Below, in pieces: positions 4,658 to 37,158 of a stretch of DNA of 45,211 nucleotides. The DNA is from a virus. Position 1 is the first letter of the stretch; every line of letters begins with the position of its first letter. A model generated the notes under the pieces. The model was not told the origin of the DNA and made no database searches. It worked only from the letters and a program-made list of their open reading frames with translations. Location: the IMG/VR virus record IMGVR_UViG_3300009164_000128, positions 1 through 45,211 of that record; one strand, given 5' to 3'. The position numbers and the translations under genes were made by a program.

Positions 4658-7600
4658 GTGGCACTGAATTTTGATGCGAAACTCACACTTGATGTTTCGG
4701 AATTTCTTGCATCTATAAAAAGGGCTGAGAATGCTGTAGATGGCCTCAAAAAGAAGCTAGCCCAACCTATGCCTATGGGTGGTGCTACAGGGACTCCTAG
4801 TGGCGTTCCAGCCCGTCAGGAGGCCGCAAATCAGCAGGCTGGCAAGCAGATGGCAGATAGTGTTGTAAAAAACTCTGCTAGAGCAAGATATGCCCTATAT
4901 GACGTTGCTGCAGCATACAAACAAATTGAACGAATTGCTGTAGATGCACTAAAAGCAATGATCGGCACAGCAGCAGAATACGAAAGATCTTTCGTAAACG
5001 TTGCAAGAACAACAGAATTTCAAAGCGTAAAAATTGGTGAAGCTGCCAGAGCAATGAAATATTCATTGACTGAACTTGCAACCCAAATTCCTGTATCATT
5101 CTCAGGTATTACAGAAATTGCTACTATTGGTAACCAACTTGGTATTGCACAAGGAAAACTTGTTAGCTTCTCTAAAGCAGTCGCACAGTTCTCATCTATT
5201 ACTGGTGTTGGAATTGAAAGTGCCGCACTTAGCTTTGGTCGTATTGGTGAACTTTTATCTAGTGCTGGTGAACAAATTGACTATAACCAACTTGGATCAT
5301 CTATTGCTTATGCCGGTGTAAAAGCTGTTGCTACTGAAGCACAGATTCTTTCCGTAACAAAAGAAATTGCTACTACAGCTAAAATGGCTAAGTTTACTGC
5401 ACCTGAAGTTGTTGGTCTTGCAACTGCACTTTCATCTCTAGGTATTGCTCCTGAAGCTGCTCGTGGATCTATTATTAGAACTTTTGCACTTATCAACCAA
5501 GCTGTCGGTGAGGGTGGAACTAAACTTAGTGCCTATGCATCTGTTGCTGGTCTTTCAGCTAAAAAATTCTCTAGTGAATGGACTAAGAATGGTCAAGTAG
5601 CATTTGATAAATTCTTATCTGGACTTCAAGGAATGAGCGATAAAGGACAGAACCTTGATACTGTGCTTCGTGGTCTTGGTATCCATAACGTTCGTGATAT
5701 TCAAACTATTCAAAAACTTGGAGATAACTATAACGTTTATGCTGAAGGAATTGCTAACGCAAATAAAGGATTTAGCGAAGGAATCTTCCTATCTGCTGCA
5801 TACGGACAAATTCAAGAAACTGTTTCAGCAAAACTAACTATTATTCAAAATCAATGGAATAACTTTTTAGCTAGTGCTGGAGATGCATCTTTTCCCGGAA
5901 TCAAATTCCTTCTTGATATTGTCGGAAAAGTTATTGATCAATTAAATTCTTTTGCTAGAAATCCTTTTGGAAAAGTTATTTTAACTATGACTACAGTTGC
6001 ACTTGGTTTAGTTGCTGCTATTGCAGCTATCAATGCTATTGTCGCTATTTCTAAAGCAACAATGATGGCATATGCAACAGCAATGGAAATAGATACTGCT
6101 GCTGTTCAAGCAAAAACAGGATCAATAGAAGCACTTATTCTTGCTGAAGAAGGACTTATTATTGCTGAAGAAGGAGCTATAGCTACTACAGAAGCAGAGA
6201 TAGTTGCTTTAGAAGGTGCAACAGTAGCTGGAAATGCTGCCGCAGGTGGAATTACTAAAGCTAGCATTGCAATGAAAGCTTTAAGTGTTGCAGGTAAAGC
6301 AGTTGTTTGGATTGCTGCTATTTATGCTGCAATTGAGGTCGTTGGTGCATTAGGTGATGCTTGGCAAAAAGCAACTGACTCAACTGCATATTATGCTCGT
6401 AAAGCAGAAGAATCTCTTGGTGGTTTTGCTGGATTACAAGATGCTGTAACTTCAGACTTTACGGCTGCTATGGAACAATATGGTAGCGTAACGGCTATTA
6501 GTGCCGCTATAGCATCAGGTGCTTTAAATGGTATGACTGTTGATGTTGAAAGTAATACTGAAGCCGCTAAACAAGCTAGAGATGCAGCTAATGGATATGC
6601 TGAAATTCTTGGTAGTGGATTAACTGATGGTGTAAATAGTGCAAGTGATGCAATTCAACAACAAACTGTTATTCTTGGTGAAAATTATGATGCATGGATA
6701 AGAAACCAAATACTTAATAGTGGAAACTTTAAAGATTTAGCAACAGACACTGAAACAGTAAAACAACTTAAAGCTGTTGGTTTTAGTTTTGATGGTGCAA
6801 ATAATGCTGCTAAAAAAGGTAAAAAATCATTAGATGATTACTATACATCATTAATTGAAAATGCCAAAGCATCTGGTGTTTCCTCTAGCATAACTGGTGG
6901 TCTTAGCGTTAAATTAGGTATATTAAGTGCAGCTGGTATGGGTGGAAATTCAGCACTTACTAGATTTAATGAAGCATTAATTGGTTCAGCAGCTGAAGCA
7001 TATCTTCTAGGTAATGCTGTAGTATCAACTGCAGATAAACTAAAGGCTCTTGGTGATGCACCAGAAAAATTTATTACAACAACTGAAACACTTAAAAAAG
7101 CAAGAACCATTTGGGACTATATTGCTGAAGTTCAAACAAAACTAAAAACCGCCTTTGACTGGCGTTATGCAGCACAAAATGCTGCAGACGTTTTACATAC
7201 TGGATGGAAAAAGGTTGCAGATGATTTTAAGGCTGCAAACAAAAACTTACTTGAACTAAAAACAACTATGAAAGGTCTTGTTGCAGATCGTTCAATTCTT
7301 CAATATCAATTAACTATTGCACAAAAGTATGGTGATACTCTTCGTGCTAATGCTATTCAAGCCGAACTTGCCGCTAATAAAGATAAGATAACACAAAACA
7401 CAACAGATCAAGCATCCGCTACAGATGATGCTAGTCGTGCACTGACGGGTAATACTGATGCTGCAATTAGAAATCGTCAAACTATGCAAGGTTTAGTGAC
7501 TTCTAGCTTAGATTATCTAACTACTTTAAAAATGACTAGCAAAGATACTGATACCCTTGTTGCAAGTGCGGAAAGCTTAAAAACAGATTTTATGAATCAA

Positions 7601-24499: not shown

Positions 24500-24528
24500 A
24501 TTGTATAGAACTTTTTATCTTTTGTCAA
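24500..24528 (-). promoter_or_regulatory. Leftward promoter TTGACA-N17-TACAAT inside the whiB 3' end
   Basis: On the minus strand a perfect -35 (TTGACA, 24523-24528) and -10 (TACAAT, 24500-24505) are separated by 17 bases. Transcription would start near 24493 and produce the exonuclease, Sak4 and downstream messages. It overlaps the last codons of the WhiB-like gene, so upstream transcription and this promoter can be regulated separately. Confidence 0.6.
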
Positions 24529-24871
24529 TACCTTTTGTAAAATTTATTCCGCCCCAAATACCGAACTGTTCGTCATTTGCAACTGCAAAATCATAGCATA
24601 ATTTAAGTAGTGGGCAGTCTGAACATAACTGCTCACATTCATCTGCTGTAAGATCTCTGGCTTTTCCACCATTTTGCTCATCTTCAAAACCATAACCATC
24701 ATAATCTTGATAATAATATGGATTATCTTTACAAGGCCAATTTCTAACTTCTTCCATCTTTTGATGTAGTTGGTCATATTTATGTACAGCCTCTTTTTTT
24801 ATACCAAAATAAACTGGCTTTTCATTACTTGCTTTATCTACTGTGTAGCCACGCTTAATCTTTTTGGTCAT
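24515..24871 (-). CDS. WhiB-family iron-sulfur regulator
   Basis: The 118-residue protein has the Wbl signature: Cys47 in WPCKDN, then ECEQLCSDCPLLKLC (Cys83, Cys86, Cys92; Cys79 is extra) and the GIWGG turn at 104-108. Wbl proteins bind a [4Fe-4S] cluster and contact the principal sigma factor, and they are restricted to Actinobacteria and their phages. This gene is therefore the strongest host indicator here. An unusual 30-residue insertion (YYYQDYDGYGFEDEQNGGKA) separates the first cysteine from the others. It probably reprograms early or host transcription. Confidence 0.9.
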   Translation of the reverse strand: MTKKIKRGYTVDKASNEKPVYFGIKKEAVHKYDQLHQKMEEVRNWPCKDNPYYYQDYDGYGFEDEQNGGKARDLTADECEQLCSDCPLLKLCYDFAVANDEQFGIWGGINFTKGIDKR

Positions 24872-33107: not shown

Positions 33108-33330
33108 TAAAGATCTCCCAGTCATTAGTTAATGCGATAATGTCGTTGAAGTTGCGGTTGATACCGGCAATAATGTTTTCTACATATTTAGTTTCCAAAA
33201 TCATTACGCCAGTATGTCCATTAGGTAATTCTCTATCCTTAAACCAATCAGCAAGGTTAGTTGCCAGCATTTCAATAGCGAGTTCCCTTTTAACAATCTG
33301 CGTTTTAGTAGCATCACTTAGTTTAGGCAT
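33100..33330 (-). CDS. Small helical protein, unknown
   Basis: The 76-residue product (MPKLSDATKTQIVKRELAIE) has a helix-rich sequence and a C-terminal segment ending EIFND. It starts in an ATGCCTAAA junction overlapping the upstream stop by 8 bases. No domain recognised. Confidence 0.5.
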   Translation of the reverse strand: MPKLSDATKTQIVKRELAIEMLATNLADWFKDRELPNGHTGVMILETKYVENIIAGINRNFNDIIALTNDWEIFND

Positions 33331-33988
33331 TGTTACCCACTACCCCTGATGCTTCCGCAAGGTTCTCTTCAATAATGCTAATCAGCATCTCAACAGACAC
33401 ACCATTACTTACATAAGTTTGTGGTGAGCGAACACTAACACCATTATCATTCAAATCAATCTCTCTAAGGGTTCTCAGAGCGAATAAAACACTATTCCAC
33501 TCACCGATACGCATAAACATTTGCTTATGCTCTGCCTTGTTCATACGGGTCTTTTTGGCGCGTTGCTGAGATGATGCCAAAGCAACCATCCTATCAACTT
33601 CTGTGTTGATGAAATCGGCAATCACATTGTCAAAATCAGTTTTATCGGTATCACCACCCAAAAGATCAGTTAACTCTTCTGGTTCAATCTGGGATGTTGT
33701 AGTGCCTACGACCTGATACATTTTGCTCTGGTCATCGAAACTAACTACTGTGTATAGTCTGCTCATTGTGCTATCTCCTTGTTGTTGGGTTGTTGGCGTT
33801 GTTGGGGTTGTATCTAGTGCGCTGGCATAACAGCATTCATCGCATTCATCAGAACCGGCTACACCTAATTCATAAGGTTGTAAATTATTACAAGTACTAC
33901 ATTCAAAAACGCAAGAAGTACAACTAGCGGTGTAATTAAGTTCTGTTGCGACATCACCGATACCGCAGTATTGACAAAGTGGGTTCAT
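33323..33988 (-). CDS. Cysteine-rich/helical two-part protein with possible internal start
   Basis: From ATG 33988 (ribosome site AGGAGAGATACT) the 221-residue protein has an N-terminal metal-site region: CQYCGIGD, CTSCVFECSTC and DECDECC (nine cysteines in 53 residues). A TTPTTPTTQQQ linker follows, then a helical second half. At residue 75 an ATG (33766) follows AAGGAGATAGCACA in frame, so a 147-residue second product beginning MSRLYTVVSFDDQSKMYQVV is likely. It looks like two genes fused in frame, or dual translation. It is the first gene of the small-gene chain. Confidence 0.5.
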   Translation of the reverse strand: MNPLCQYCGIGDVATELNYTASCTSCVFECSTCNNLQPYELGVAGSDECDECCYASALDTTPTTPTTQQQGDSTMSRLYTVVSFDDQSKMYQVVGTTTSQIEPEELTDLLGGDTDKTDFDNVIADFINTEVDRMVALASSQQRAKKTRMNKAEHKQMFMRIGEWNSVLFALRTLREIDLNDNGVSVRSPQTYVSNGVSVEMLISIIEENLAEASGVVGNNA

Positions 33989-34007
33989 AGTATCTCTCCT
34001 AAGATGT

Positions 34008-34031
34008 GAATTGAATATGTCCGCCATATTC
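34008..34031. promoter_or_regulatory. Operator-like site 1 (GAATTGAATATG with GAATATG-N5-CATATTC)
   Basis: GAATTGAATATG (34008-34019) leads into an inverted repeat (GAATATG at 34013-34019, CATATTC at 34025-34031). The same GAATTGAATATG occurs on the other strand at 34205-34216. The two flank the 200-base AT-rich region before the first small early gene, as expected for repressor sites. The protein that binds is unknown. Confidence 0.45.
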
Positions 34032-34306: not shown

Positions 34307-35362
34307 CTAATCCCAAAGATCTTGGTCAATACGCTCACCAAAACTATCAGCCCGTCTAGGACGCTCCAAAGCCGATAAATAACCCATCTCCACAAGGTCA
34401 TCAAACGAACCCATAAACTGATTATCCTTATCAAAATACTCACCAAACTCATTCACAGAATAATCCGGTAGTTCAGGGAACTCATCAAGATAACTAGGCA
34501 AACTGCCATCATTCTCTTCGTCATACCAATCTTCTGGAATAAACACATCACCCAAATCGCTGGCAACATAACGCCCACCAGTCGCATTAGTAGAATAGCC
34601 AGACTTATTACCCGAAGTCAAATTGCGATAGTAAGAACTAGAATAATCAATCTTCTCTTCATACTTAGCATTCTGCTCTGGCAACACTTCCACTTGGTCA
34701 AGACGACCGCCACGAACGGTTAGCAAAGTACGCTCAGGAACATTCTCGATATAGACAGCCTTAAGACCAATAGACTTCAAAGCCGACATCAAAATACTCT
34801 CAGTCGAAGCAAACACAAACGAACCATCCTTAAGTTGTGCGACACACAACGGACTGTGAGAGATACGACCAACCTTAAGCGTCTGGCGTTCTGCTTCATC
34901 AAGCCAAGCAACACTAGCATCACCATCGAGCATTTCTAACTTAGAAAGATCATTAGGATACTGGGATAGCAAGGCAGGGATAACAGAACTATCTACATCT
35001 GGCAACTTAGCGTCAATGTATGAACGAACAGTATTGTGGTTATAGATAACGCCATTATGAACCAACGCAATCTGCTGGTCAGGGGATAGTACAGGGTGAT
35101 TATTAGCCATAACCTTAATAGAGCCGTGAGTAGCGTAACGAGTATGTAAAACAGCCACACCAGCATCTCTAGGCATACCCTTAAGGCTAAGTTGCGCACC
35201 AGCCACATCATTCTTGAATAGACCTGAACCCATCGGCGACTGCCAAGCAAAACCTGATGCCTGATTACCCCGAACATCCATCTCTACCAAGAGAGCGTGA
35301 GCCAACTTGCGCGGAAGAATTCTTGAATTATTTGATAGTGAAAAACCTGCGATTGAACACAT
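34307..35362 (-). CDS. Class II glutamine amidotransferase (stand-alone)
   Basis: With the start at ATG 35362 the second residue is Cys2, the N-terminal nucleophile of class II (Ntn-type) glutaminases: MCSIAGF. AAGGTG lies six bases upstream, deciding this start over 35371. The family motifs follow: HTRYATHG at 73-80, HNGVIYNHN at 102-110 and a DVDSSV segment near 122. The 351 residues lack the synthase domains of GFAT, PurF or AsnB; the C-terminal 120 residues are acidic and Tyr-rich. It releases ammonia from glutamine or acts on related amides. The divergent amidoligase gene at 36175 is the likely partner; pairs of GAT-II and amidoligase genes are known from comparative genomics. Confidence 0.85.
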   Translation of the reverse strand: MCSIAGFSLSNNSRILPRKLAHALLVEMDVRGNQASGFAWQSPMGSGLFKNDVAGAQLSLKGMPRDAGVAVLHTRYATHGSIKVMANNHPVLSPDQQIALVHNGVIYNHNTVRSYIDAKLPDVDSSVIPALLSQYPNDLSKLEMLDGDASVAWLDEAERQTLKVGRISHSPLCVAQLKDGSFVFASTESILMSALKSIGLKAVYIENVPERTLLTVRGGRLDQVEVLPEQNAKYEEKIDYSSSYYRNLTSGNKSGYSTNATGGRYVASDLGDVFIPEDWYDEENDGSLPSYLDEFPELPDYSVNEFGEYFDKDNQFMGSFDDLVEMGYLSALERPRRADSFGERIDQDLWD

Positions 35363-35416
35363 ACGCATCACCTTGTCCTTTTCTTGTTAGTAGTTGTATT
35401 TTCTATTACACTATCT

Positions 35417-35445
35417 AGTCTAATAGAATTACTGGTAGTTGTCAA
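35417..35445 (-). promoter_or_regulatory. Leftward promoter TTGACA-N17-TAGACT for the amidotransferase
   Basis: On the minus strand -35 TTGACA (35440-35445) and -10 TAGACT (35417-35422) are 17 bases apart. Transcription would begin near 35410, giving a leader of about 50 bases to ATG 35362. Confidence 0.5.
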
Positions 35446-35468
35446 ATCCAAAACACTAAGAAGGAGAA

Positions 35469-35539
35469 GGGGCAACCAAGACCAACCATAATCTATAATC
35501 TCTACAAGACCAGTGAAACCTTGCGAAACCGGTTGCCCC
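35469..35539 (-). ncRNA. Long-range hairpin / structured leader candidate
   Basis: GGGGCAACC (35469-35477) pairs with GGTTGCCCC (35531-35539), a 9-bp stem closing a 53-base interior. It lies between the two leftward promoters, so only transcripts from the distal one would carry it. The total length of 71 is tRNA-like, but no T-loop or anticodon pattern is present. It may be a regulatory leader or sRNA. Confidence 0.35.
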
Positions 35540-35566
35540 AACGAACGCCTTTATTTGCGTCTAGTA

Positions 35567-35597
35567 ATAGTATTACATCTCCACATCACATTGTCAA
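35567..35597 (-). promoter_or_regulatory. Distal leftward promoter candidate TTGACA...TACTAT
   Basis: On the minus strand TTGACA (35592-35597) is followed after 19 bases by TACTAT (35567-35572), or after 16 by TAATAC. The spacing is less ideal than the other sites. It lies back to back with the rightward promoter, with the 18-bp palindrome between them. Confidence 0.35.
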
Positions 35598-35606
35598 GCC
35601 ATATCG

Positions 35607-35624
35607 TATAACGAAATCGTTATA
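35607..35624. promoter_or_regulatory. 18-bp perfect palindrome TATAACGA-AA-TCGTTATA
   Basis: TATAACGA (35607-35614) and TCGTTATA (35617-35624) are perfect complements separated by AA. It lies ten bases upstream of the rightward -35 and inside the gap between the divergent promoters, an ideal operator position. The binding protein is unknown. Confidence 0.55.
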
Positions 35625-35633
35625 AAAAGATCC

Positions 35634-35662
35634 TTGACACCGGTCAAGCCATCGTGTATAAT
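35634..35662 (+). promoter_or_regulatory. Perfect consensus sigma70 promoter TTGACA-N17-TATAAT (rightward)
   Basis: TTGACA at 35634-35639 and TATAAT at 35657-35662 with a 17-base spacer match the full consensus. Start expected near 35669. The first gene downstream is the amidoligase at 36175, so the transcript would carry a leader of about 500 bases holding the TTTGGGAACTCGC repeats. A diverged copy of TCAAGCCATCGTGTATAAT lies 50 bases upstream, near 35594 (TCAAGCCATATCGTATAAC). Confidence 0.8.
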
Positions 35663-35703
35663 CGCGCCCGTATGCGTGTGCGCTCCTTTTATAGAGGGGG
35701 TCT

Positions 35704-35884
35704 TTTGGGAACTCGCACCGGTGCTGGGGGTCTATGTGCGTTTAGGGTTTTTGGGAACTCACGCTGGTCTTGACGGGGGGTGAAGATCTTTTGGGGTTTG
35801 GGAAGTTTGGGAAGTCGCGCAGGTTTGGGAACTCGCGTTTGGGAATTCGCGCTGGCTCGCTCGCTCGCTGGTTTGGGAACTCGG
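35704..35884 (+). repeat. Seven iterated copies of TTTGGGAACTCGC
   Basis: Copies occur at 35704-35716, 35750-35762 (CAC end), 35797-35805 (partial), 35806-35818, 35824-35836, 35838-35850 (ATTC variant) and 35872-35884 (GGG end), all in the same orientation, several followed by GCTGG or ACCGG. A run CTCGCTCGCTCGCTGG lies among them. Iterated same-orientation repeats in an intergenic region resemble origin iterons or multiple operators. Confidence 0.65.
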
Positions 35885-35968
35885 GGGCAGGTATTCCGCA
35901 ACGCCCAAATTGACCCTGAGATTTTGCTGGGAGTTGCCTGAGAGTTTCCTGAGAATGAGGCAAATCTG

Positions 35969-36010
35969 CGACACGCCCGAAAAACCAAAAATCCGACACG
36001 CCCGAAAAAC
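35969..36010 (+). repeat. 17-bp direct repeat cgacacgcccgaaaaac (two copies)
   Basis: Identical 17-mers at 35969-35985 and 35994-36010, spaced 25 bases start to start. They lie between the iterated repeat block and the LexA box. Three nearby CTGAGA copies (near 35917, 35938 and 35949) form another small repeat set. Confidence 0.6.
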
Positions 36011-36026
36011 ATACGGGGATCTTTTT

Positions 36027-36042
36027 TCGAACAAATGTTCGA
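36027..36042. promoter_or_regulatory. LexA (SOS) box TCGAAC-AAAT-GTTCGA
   Basis: The 16-bp sequence matches the actinobacterial/mycobacterial LexA consensus TCGAACN4GTTCGA exactly. It lies 132 bases upstream of the amidoligase ATG, in front of an AT-rich stretch with TTATAA/TATAAC (36052-36058) as a possible -10. This predicts control by host LexA and induction on DNA damage. Confidence 0.65.
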
Positions 36043-36174
36043 GAAAACCAATTATAACAAAATGATAACAATACCCCAAAACACTCTAAACAGGGTTGCG
36101 AATATCGCCGAGATATGCCTTAATTGACTTATCGGCAAAGCGCCGAGAGCAACACCAAACAAGGAGATATCCGA

Positions 36175-37050
36175 ATGGAAAACAACCAGACACCAGAAAC
36201 CACACTTGACCAATTCGTTAAATTCGCCAACGATTACGCTCAACAACCAGAACAGGCAACCGCCTTAACTTGGGGATACGAAATTGAGAGCAACACGATG
36301 AACGATATTTACAACACCGCCCAATTCACCCCAGAGTTTCGCAAATGCCACGGCTTAGATTGGCAAGCCGACGGAAGTGTAAGCGATGAAAGCGAAAGCG
36401 CCAACAACGGCGAAGATTGCGAATGCTCTTGCGATGAGTGCGACCATTCTTGCGATTGTAACAACTGCTCAATTGAAAACTATGAACTAGACCACTGCCA
36501 CGAAAGCGATTGCTACGGCTCGAGCGAATATCAAGAAGTCGCAAGCATCGGGGGATTGGAAACCACACACCCCGATACCCTAGACTTACTAGCCCAATGG
36601 GGATTAAACGAAGCAACTTTTAACGATGATACAGGCATACATATCCACATCGGAAGCGCCCACCTAACCGCCCCACAGGTCGCAAATATCCTAACCGCCT
36701 ACCGACTAGCAAGCCCGATCATAAACCAAATCGCCGAGCGCACCGGCACTTATTACGCACAGGCGCACGATGAACAGATAGAGAACGATTGCCGAGCAGG
36801 ACACGGCACAAACTCAAAATACTACGCCGTTAACACTTGCTCACATTTCAGCACACACCGCGCGCAAACAATCGAATTCCGCCAAATGGCAGGAACAACA
36901 AACACCGACCTAAAACAGACCGACAGAGTTAGAGCATATGCCGAAATCTTGCGCCTACTTGTTACCTACGCAAGCAAGCCAGCACCTAAACTTTATTGGA
37001 TAACTAAGGCAACCGACCTAAACGACCTAATTAGGCTTTTGAAGGCATAA
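36175..37050 (+). CDS. Amidoligase (PF12224-type) with cysteine-rich insertion
   Basis: The start at ATG 36175 has AAGGAGA at 36161-36167. The 291-residue protein shows amidoligase motifs in order: GYEIES (34-39), DWQADGSVS (62-70, with the DGS turn), GIHIHIG (154-160) and RAQTIEFR (229-236). The carboxylate-amine ligase fold is related to glutamine synthetase and uses ATP to make amide or peptide bonds. A unique insertion of nine cysteines lies at residues 82-113 (DCECSCDECDHSCDCNNC, then C108 and C113), probably a metal site. Codons are C-rich, unlike those of the genes that follow. It is preceded by a LexA box and followed by its own terminator. The partner is probably the divergent amidotransferase. 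Confidence 0.8.
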   Translation: MENNQTPETTLDQFVKFANDYAQQPEQATALTWGYEIESNTMNDIYNTAQFTPEFRKCHGLDWQADGSVSDESESANNGEDCECSCDECDHSCDCNNCSIENYELDHCHESDCYGSSEYQEVASIGGLETTHPDTLDLLAQWGLNEATFNDDTGIHIHIGSAHLTAPQVANILTAYRLASPIINQIAERTGTYYAQAHDEQIENDCRAGHGTNSKYYAVNTCSHFSTHRAQTIEFRQMAGTTNTDLKQTDRVRAYAEILRLLVTYASKPAPKLYWITKATDLNDLIRLLKA

Positions 37051-37123: not shown

Positions 37124-37158
37124 CCGATTAAAGAAATCAATTAATCGGAGTTTTTTTT
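37124..37158 (+). terminator. Rho-independent terminator after the amidoligase
   Basis: CCGATTAA (37124-37131) pairs with TTAATCGG (37141-37148) around a 9-base loop and is followed by AG and eight T. It separates amidoligase transcription from the terminase block. A second weaker stem (GTTGGGG/CCCCAAC) precedes it. Confidence 0.85.

Follow-up and report, generated by a model that had tools for sequence, protein, structure and literature searches.

The junction between the leftward replication half and the rightward packaging and structural half of a 45.2-kb virus record, which was analysed over its whole length and is called the window here, carries two divergent genes 812 bp apart. One encodes a predicted class II (Ntn) glutamine amidotransferase (GAT) and the other a predicted PF12224 amidoligase (AL). 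We propose, with a probability of about 55%, that the two proteins form a split, two-subunit, glutamine-dependent ligase that makes amides, because both active sites are intact, the genes stay together despite a change of orientation, and one protein is predicted to fold like a glutaminase, the other like a ligase related to glutamine synthetase. The initial annotation had suggested a joint ligation system, and the active sites, the pairing and the ligase fold partly supported that interpretation. The capsid, peptidoglycan or metabolite carboxylates that it named are hypothetical targets. Phage amidoligases are widespread, and no demonstrated substrate was found in the literature searched. The two-gene form, always paired in the lineage of the window, offers the simplest system for learning what these enzymes make.

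Gene layout and predicted active sites

The GAT gene occupies 34307..35362 on the minus strand and encodes 351 aa, with a stand-alone glutaminase domain at approximately residues 1-227 followed by a low-confidence tail. The AL gene lies at 36175..37050 on the plus strand and encodes 291 aa with a predicted glutamine-synthetase-like COOH-NH2 ligase fold. Between them, 35363..36174 (812 bp) is non-coding and holds no convincing gene. The divergent arrangement and all the motifs that had been named for both proteins were found in the sequence, whereas the start coordinates were slightly corrected. For AL, ATG 36175, which follows AAGGAGAT, is the most likely start codon and replaced the less favoured TTG at 36124. 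For GAT, ATG 35362 most likely replaces the GTG at 35371, since Cys then takes position 2, as required in class II amidotransferases. The next gene after GAT (33323-34027, minus strand) encodes a protein of 234 aa that matched no family and is rich in cysteine towards its N-terminus. On the 3' side of AL, CCGATTAA...TTAATCGG and a following T run (37124..37158, plus strand), read from the sequence, form a putative terminator that probably separates AL from the packaging/structural operon. It was not in the output of the automated scan, whose length limit its loop exceeds.

GAT matched Pfam GATase_6 (E 3.5e-19) and phrog_14519 (E 1.3e-37), and its predicted model matched the glutaminase domain of GlmS (Foldseek, E 2e-12). 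Residues C2, R31 and G32 were kept in 57 of the 58 non-redundant relatives, with one gap, and R75, N103, G104 and D124 in all 58; these positions correspond to the glutaminase site of GlmS. By sequence, GAT is thus a member of the class II glutamine amidotransferases, with the N-terminal Cys nucleophile and the glutaminase residues present and the activity predicted. As had been claimed, no synthase domain follows the glutaminase domain. Residues 238-293 and 332-351 were of low confidence in the model. Within the poorly conserved tail, the motif NEFGEYFD..FMG..DDLVEMGY (residues 304-328; 34378-34452, minus strand) is conserved among the nearest relatives of the window and is possibly a contact site.

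The match of AL to PF12224 (Amidoligase_2) was weak, at 23.5 bits against a cut-off of 22 and over just 42 residues. AL also matched phrog_2443 (E 4.8e-12), and all 10 members of its family alignment matched PF12224, with a best E of 4.7e-9. Its model matched viral structures annotated as amidoligases. Comparison with the PDB gave YbdK and glutamine synthetase as the best structural matches (Z 10.9 to 1tt4 and 10.8 to 1r8g), and the closest solved folds also included a protein titled predicted glutathione synthase; Foldseek alone found no PDB match under 0.001. As the phrog_2443, family-alignment, viral-structure and PDB-fold results agree, AL was assigned to PF12224 despite the weak Pfam match. 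The ligase motifs ExE, DGS, HxH and ExR are present, and E36, E38, D66, H156, E234 and R236 were invariant wherever aligned (68-69 of 71 non-redundant members). In glutamine synthetase, ExE, HxH and ExR mark positions for metal and substrate, to which these residues would correspond. The model, which had been singled out as a check on the ligase active site, contains the YbdK/glutamine-synthetase-like ligase fold. From sequence and model, AL is therefore an amidoligase of this fold, with ATP-dependent amide bond formation predicted.

A cysteine-rich insert of AL (residues 82-108; 36418..36498, plus strand; pLDDT under 50) lies between the DGS motif and the E121 strand and contains nine Cys. 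C82, C84, C86, C89, H91, C93, C95, C98 and C108 were invariant in ten aligned AL relatives, and H107 is a further residue of the insert. Among 71 non-redundant ALs, 42 had at least five insert Cys, all of them from GAT-paired loci of the lineage or its truncated contigs, and 29 had at most two, these coming from other phages and from one chimeric fragment; the commonest count was nine. No Pfam family matched the insert, which is predicted to bind metal. Judged by these counts, the nine-Cys insert is specific to the phage lineage of the window and is a new feature.

A shared control region with repeats and an SOS-type box

The divergent control region contains a perfect sigma-70 consensus, TTGACA-17-TATAAT, directed towards AL (35634..35662, plus strand). 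On the minus strand, TTGACA-17-AATACT with TG (35569..35597) and a second promoter-like site, TTGACA-17-TAGACT (35417-35445), are directed towards GAT. All three are consensus matches only. Five repeats of TTTGGGAAYTCGCGCTGG in the same orientation span 35704..35855 (plus strand), for which 0.04 would be expected by chance in the whole window, and CTGAGAGTTTC repeats, more numerous in relatives, follow at 35916..35952 (plus strand). A palindrome resembling an SOS box, CGAACAAATGTTCG (TCGAACAAATGTTCGA with its flanks), is located at 36028..36041, 133 bp before the AL start codon.

The 18-mer repeats were concentrated in divergent control regions, with 49 there and 3 elsewhere, and the oriented array was conserved in near relatives. 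Outside the window, the exact CGAAC-N4-GTTCG box occurred in six of 29 other divergent control regions (L002, L004, L006, L011, L034 and L038). In total, 10 boxes were found in 31 kb of control regions (30 regions, 7 positive) against 1 in 424 kb elsewhere in the loci, an enrichment of approximately 140-fold. The control regions are related to one another, so that both the repeat and the box counts overstate independence. Simulated sequences yielded a mean of 0.01 boxes, and among the other palindromes with this base composition none occurred more than once. Most of the more distant relatives of the window had neither the box nor the repeat motifs. A single control region between the two genes, as put forward in the initial annotation, was thus confirmed beyond chance by the strong concentration of repeats and SOS-type box.

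The CGAAC-N4-GTTCG sequence differs little from the LexA consensus published for Gram-positive bacteria (PMC2248561) and looks like a Gram-positive LexA-type SOS box, which suggests putative LexA regulation. The 18-bp repeats may be sites to which a phage regulator binds, or else an element of an origin. The combination of sigma-70 promoter, oriented repeats and SOS-type box, as read from the sequence, is a new feature. For the 512-nt stretch from the rightward promoter to AL, the RNA fold z was -0.06, with no sign of a structured leader, and Rfam and tRNA scans returned no matches. TTG-started ORFs at 35689-36079 were rejected as genes, as they overlap one another within the repeats.

The WhiB-like transcription factor encoded at 24515-24871 (minus strand), the terminase, which is closest to those of Arthrobacter phages (43% identical), and the Gram-positive type of the SOS box together point to an actinobacterial host. 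A search of genome contigs with GAT found no relative, so that neither a host nor a prophage could be named.

Pairing of the two genes and alternative readings

A GAT profile search of viral contigs returned 59 loci, of which 52 had AL within 4 kb (33 divergent, 19 tandem). In the remaining seven, the contig ended within 1.1 kb upstream of GAT. AL was therefore beside GAT in 52/52 loci with room. Most of the loci come from a single phage lineage, in which helicase, terminase and portal are conserved, and so are not independent. The reciprocal AL profile search found 40 loci, 33 of them with GAT; a single-sequence AL search of the same contigs had no matches. Among the seven AL loci without GAT, four were cut by contig ends (L085, L087, L092 and L109) and two were true AL-only loci of other lineages (L112 and L115). 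The last, L098, was rejected as an AL without GAT, since its AL fragment abuts oppositely read sequence (AL 3' half fused to inverted sequence at 5900-6450) and the contig is probably chimeric.

The pair was also present in phages of Laroyevirus, Bruynoghevirus, Lahexavirus and Zobellviridae and in Arthrobacter, Pseudomonas, Alcaligenes and Aeromonas phages. However, whole records of Bacillus, Porphyromonas, Faecalibacterium, Blautia and Syntrophomonadaceae phages carried AL without a GATase_6 match. The conserved pairing that had been anticipated thus held at every related viral locus with room, where one gene without the other was far from the usual state, but in phages outside the lineage AL is often found with no GATase_6 protein and is not always GAT-dependent. 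Four loci of other lineages (L102, L105, L106 and L020) carry a very short GAT-II of ~180-190 aa (MCVII..., HFRxATHGS, AHNG) directly after AL; their GATase_6/PF13522 score was weak or nil where searched, or they were detected by our own profile alone.

AL homologues without a GATase_6 partner suggest that the amine used by AL may not be ammonia. It is possible, though we doubt it, that AL links a carboxylate to a larger amine, such as an amino acid or polyamine, giving for example a gamma-glutamyl peptide or protein tag, with GAT contributing only glutamate or ammonia to a side reaction. Gamma-glutamyl cyclotransferase is found with AL in Arthrobacter, PaP3, Alcaligenes, Bacillus and Blautia phages, in the last two without a GATase_6 protein; in many phages a second COOH-NH2 ligase and an ATP-grasp ligase are also present; and both YbdK and the predicted glutathione synthase among the closest folds are in line with this reading. 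In the lineage of the window, by contrast, GAT was never missing where room existed, and the accompanying enzymes were absent. PF06094 (cyclotransferase) and PF14395 (COOH-NH2_lig) were not found in the window and 21 long relatives (22 long contigs), nor PF08443 (RimK ATP-grasp) in the window and 11 of these 21 (12 searched), although the same searches detected all three in other phages. Because of these absences, the lineage appears from its sequences to be a minimal AL and GAT form without the often accompanying enzymes, which is new here.

We consider it rather unlikely that the enzymes act independently and are neighbours solely as the first genes of two divergent transcription units in a conserved genome plan. 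The predominance of one lineage with its conserved helicase, terminase and portal would fit such a plan, and a mirror-tree comparison of distance matrices gave r 0.49 for AL-GAT against 0.70 for GAT-helicase, so that nothing in it points to co-evolution over and above common descent. Nevertheless, adjacency survives in the tandem arrangement (19 loci) and in unrelated phage genera. Deazaguanine and hypermodified thymine pathways use amide-forming steps. Replication genes lie downstream of GAT on the same strand and an adenine/cytosine methylase is present, but help in making a modified DNA base is very improbable and a DNA modification role unlikely, because neither QueC nor a thymidylate synthase-family gene was found in the window or 16 other records, and the scanned proteins included no further recognisable enzyme of base modification.

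Proposed mechanism and comparison with known systems

In the split ligase that we favour, the N-terminal Cys of GAT, after removal of Met, would hydrolyse glutamine, and the ammonia would pass to AL, which would spend ATP to activate a carboxylate as its acyl phosphate and convert it to a carboxamide. In favour of this reading, a compact GAT-II encoded near AL in phage C75C1 (L126, 7708-8601) is fused to gamma-glutamyl cyclotransferase, which ties the glutaminase to gamma-glutamyl chemistry. The cysteine-rich insert may form a lid stabilised by metal, or a surface for docking, beside the AL active site. Divergent promoters would drive both genes, and host LexA could hold back the AL side where the box is present. 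The substrate might be a carboxylate of the glutamate or diaminopimelate type, for which the cell wall of an actinobacterial host is the most plausible place. By analogy, a cell-wall carboxylate of the host is the most plausible guess for the target, in line with what has been suggested for phiEco32 (PMC10580990). Amidation of the cell wall could alter sensitivity to lysin or to other phages. Against the split-ligase reading, neither a gene for a substrate nor a further enzyme of the pathway was linked in the lineage of the window. The AL homologues without a GATase_6 partner, the mirror-tree result and the short, weak Pfam match of AL also count against it. In a fuller scenario, which is speculative and unlikely as a whole, a minimal, metal-stabilised (nine-Cys) glutamine-dependent AL would be controlled by the SOS repressor of the host and by a phage-specific regulator that binds the repeats, and would amidate a carboxylate in the actinobacterial cell wall so as to keep out competing phages or to time lysis. 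Both the cysteine insert, which is specific to the lineage, and the control region with its SOS-type box lend themselves to direct testing.

The pairing itself is not new, as other phage genera carry it and published work links both genes. As cited in PMC10580990, Iyer et al. 2009 linked amidoligase/COOH-NH2 ligase, GAT-II, ATP-grasp and gamma-glutamyl cyclotransferase genes in phage operons, examples being those of PaP3, UFV-P2 and Alcaligenes phage vB_Af_QDWS535. Like these operons, the window combines a PF12224 ligase with an adjacent class II amidotransferase, and the catalytic residues are kept. Unlike them, it has the two genes alone and divergent, without cyclotransferase, COOH-NH2_lig or RimK ATP-grasp, and its nine-Cys AL insert is absent from the PaP3, Arthrobacter and Alcaligenes homologues. 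The Arthrobacter phages Shrooms and Ottawa share an actinobacterial host, adjacent AL and GAT genes and a GAT that is 35-40% identical, but differ in their tandem cyclotransferase-AL-GAT order and in having no Cys insert.

The predicted AL fold is like the YbdK and glutamine synthetase structures (Z ~10-11), at a sequence identity of 6-16%. GAT shares its fold and glutaminase residues with the GlmS glutaminase domain, whereas GlmS has a synthase domain fused to it. In MurT/GatD, a ligase of the Mur type works with a glutaminase of class I. With peptidoglycan amidation by MurT/GatD (PMC3267633), the pair in the window has in common the idea of a ligase and a glutaminase on separate subunits, a functional analogy and not homology.
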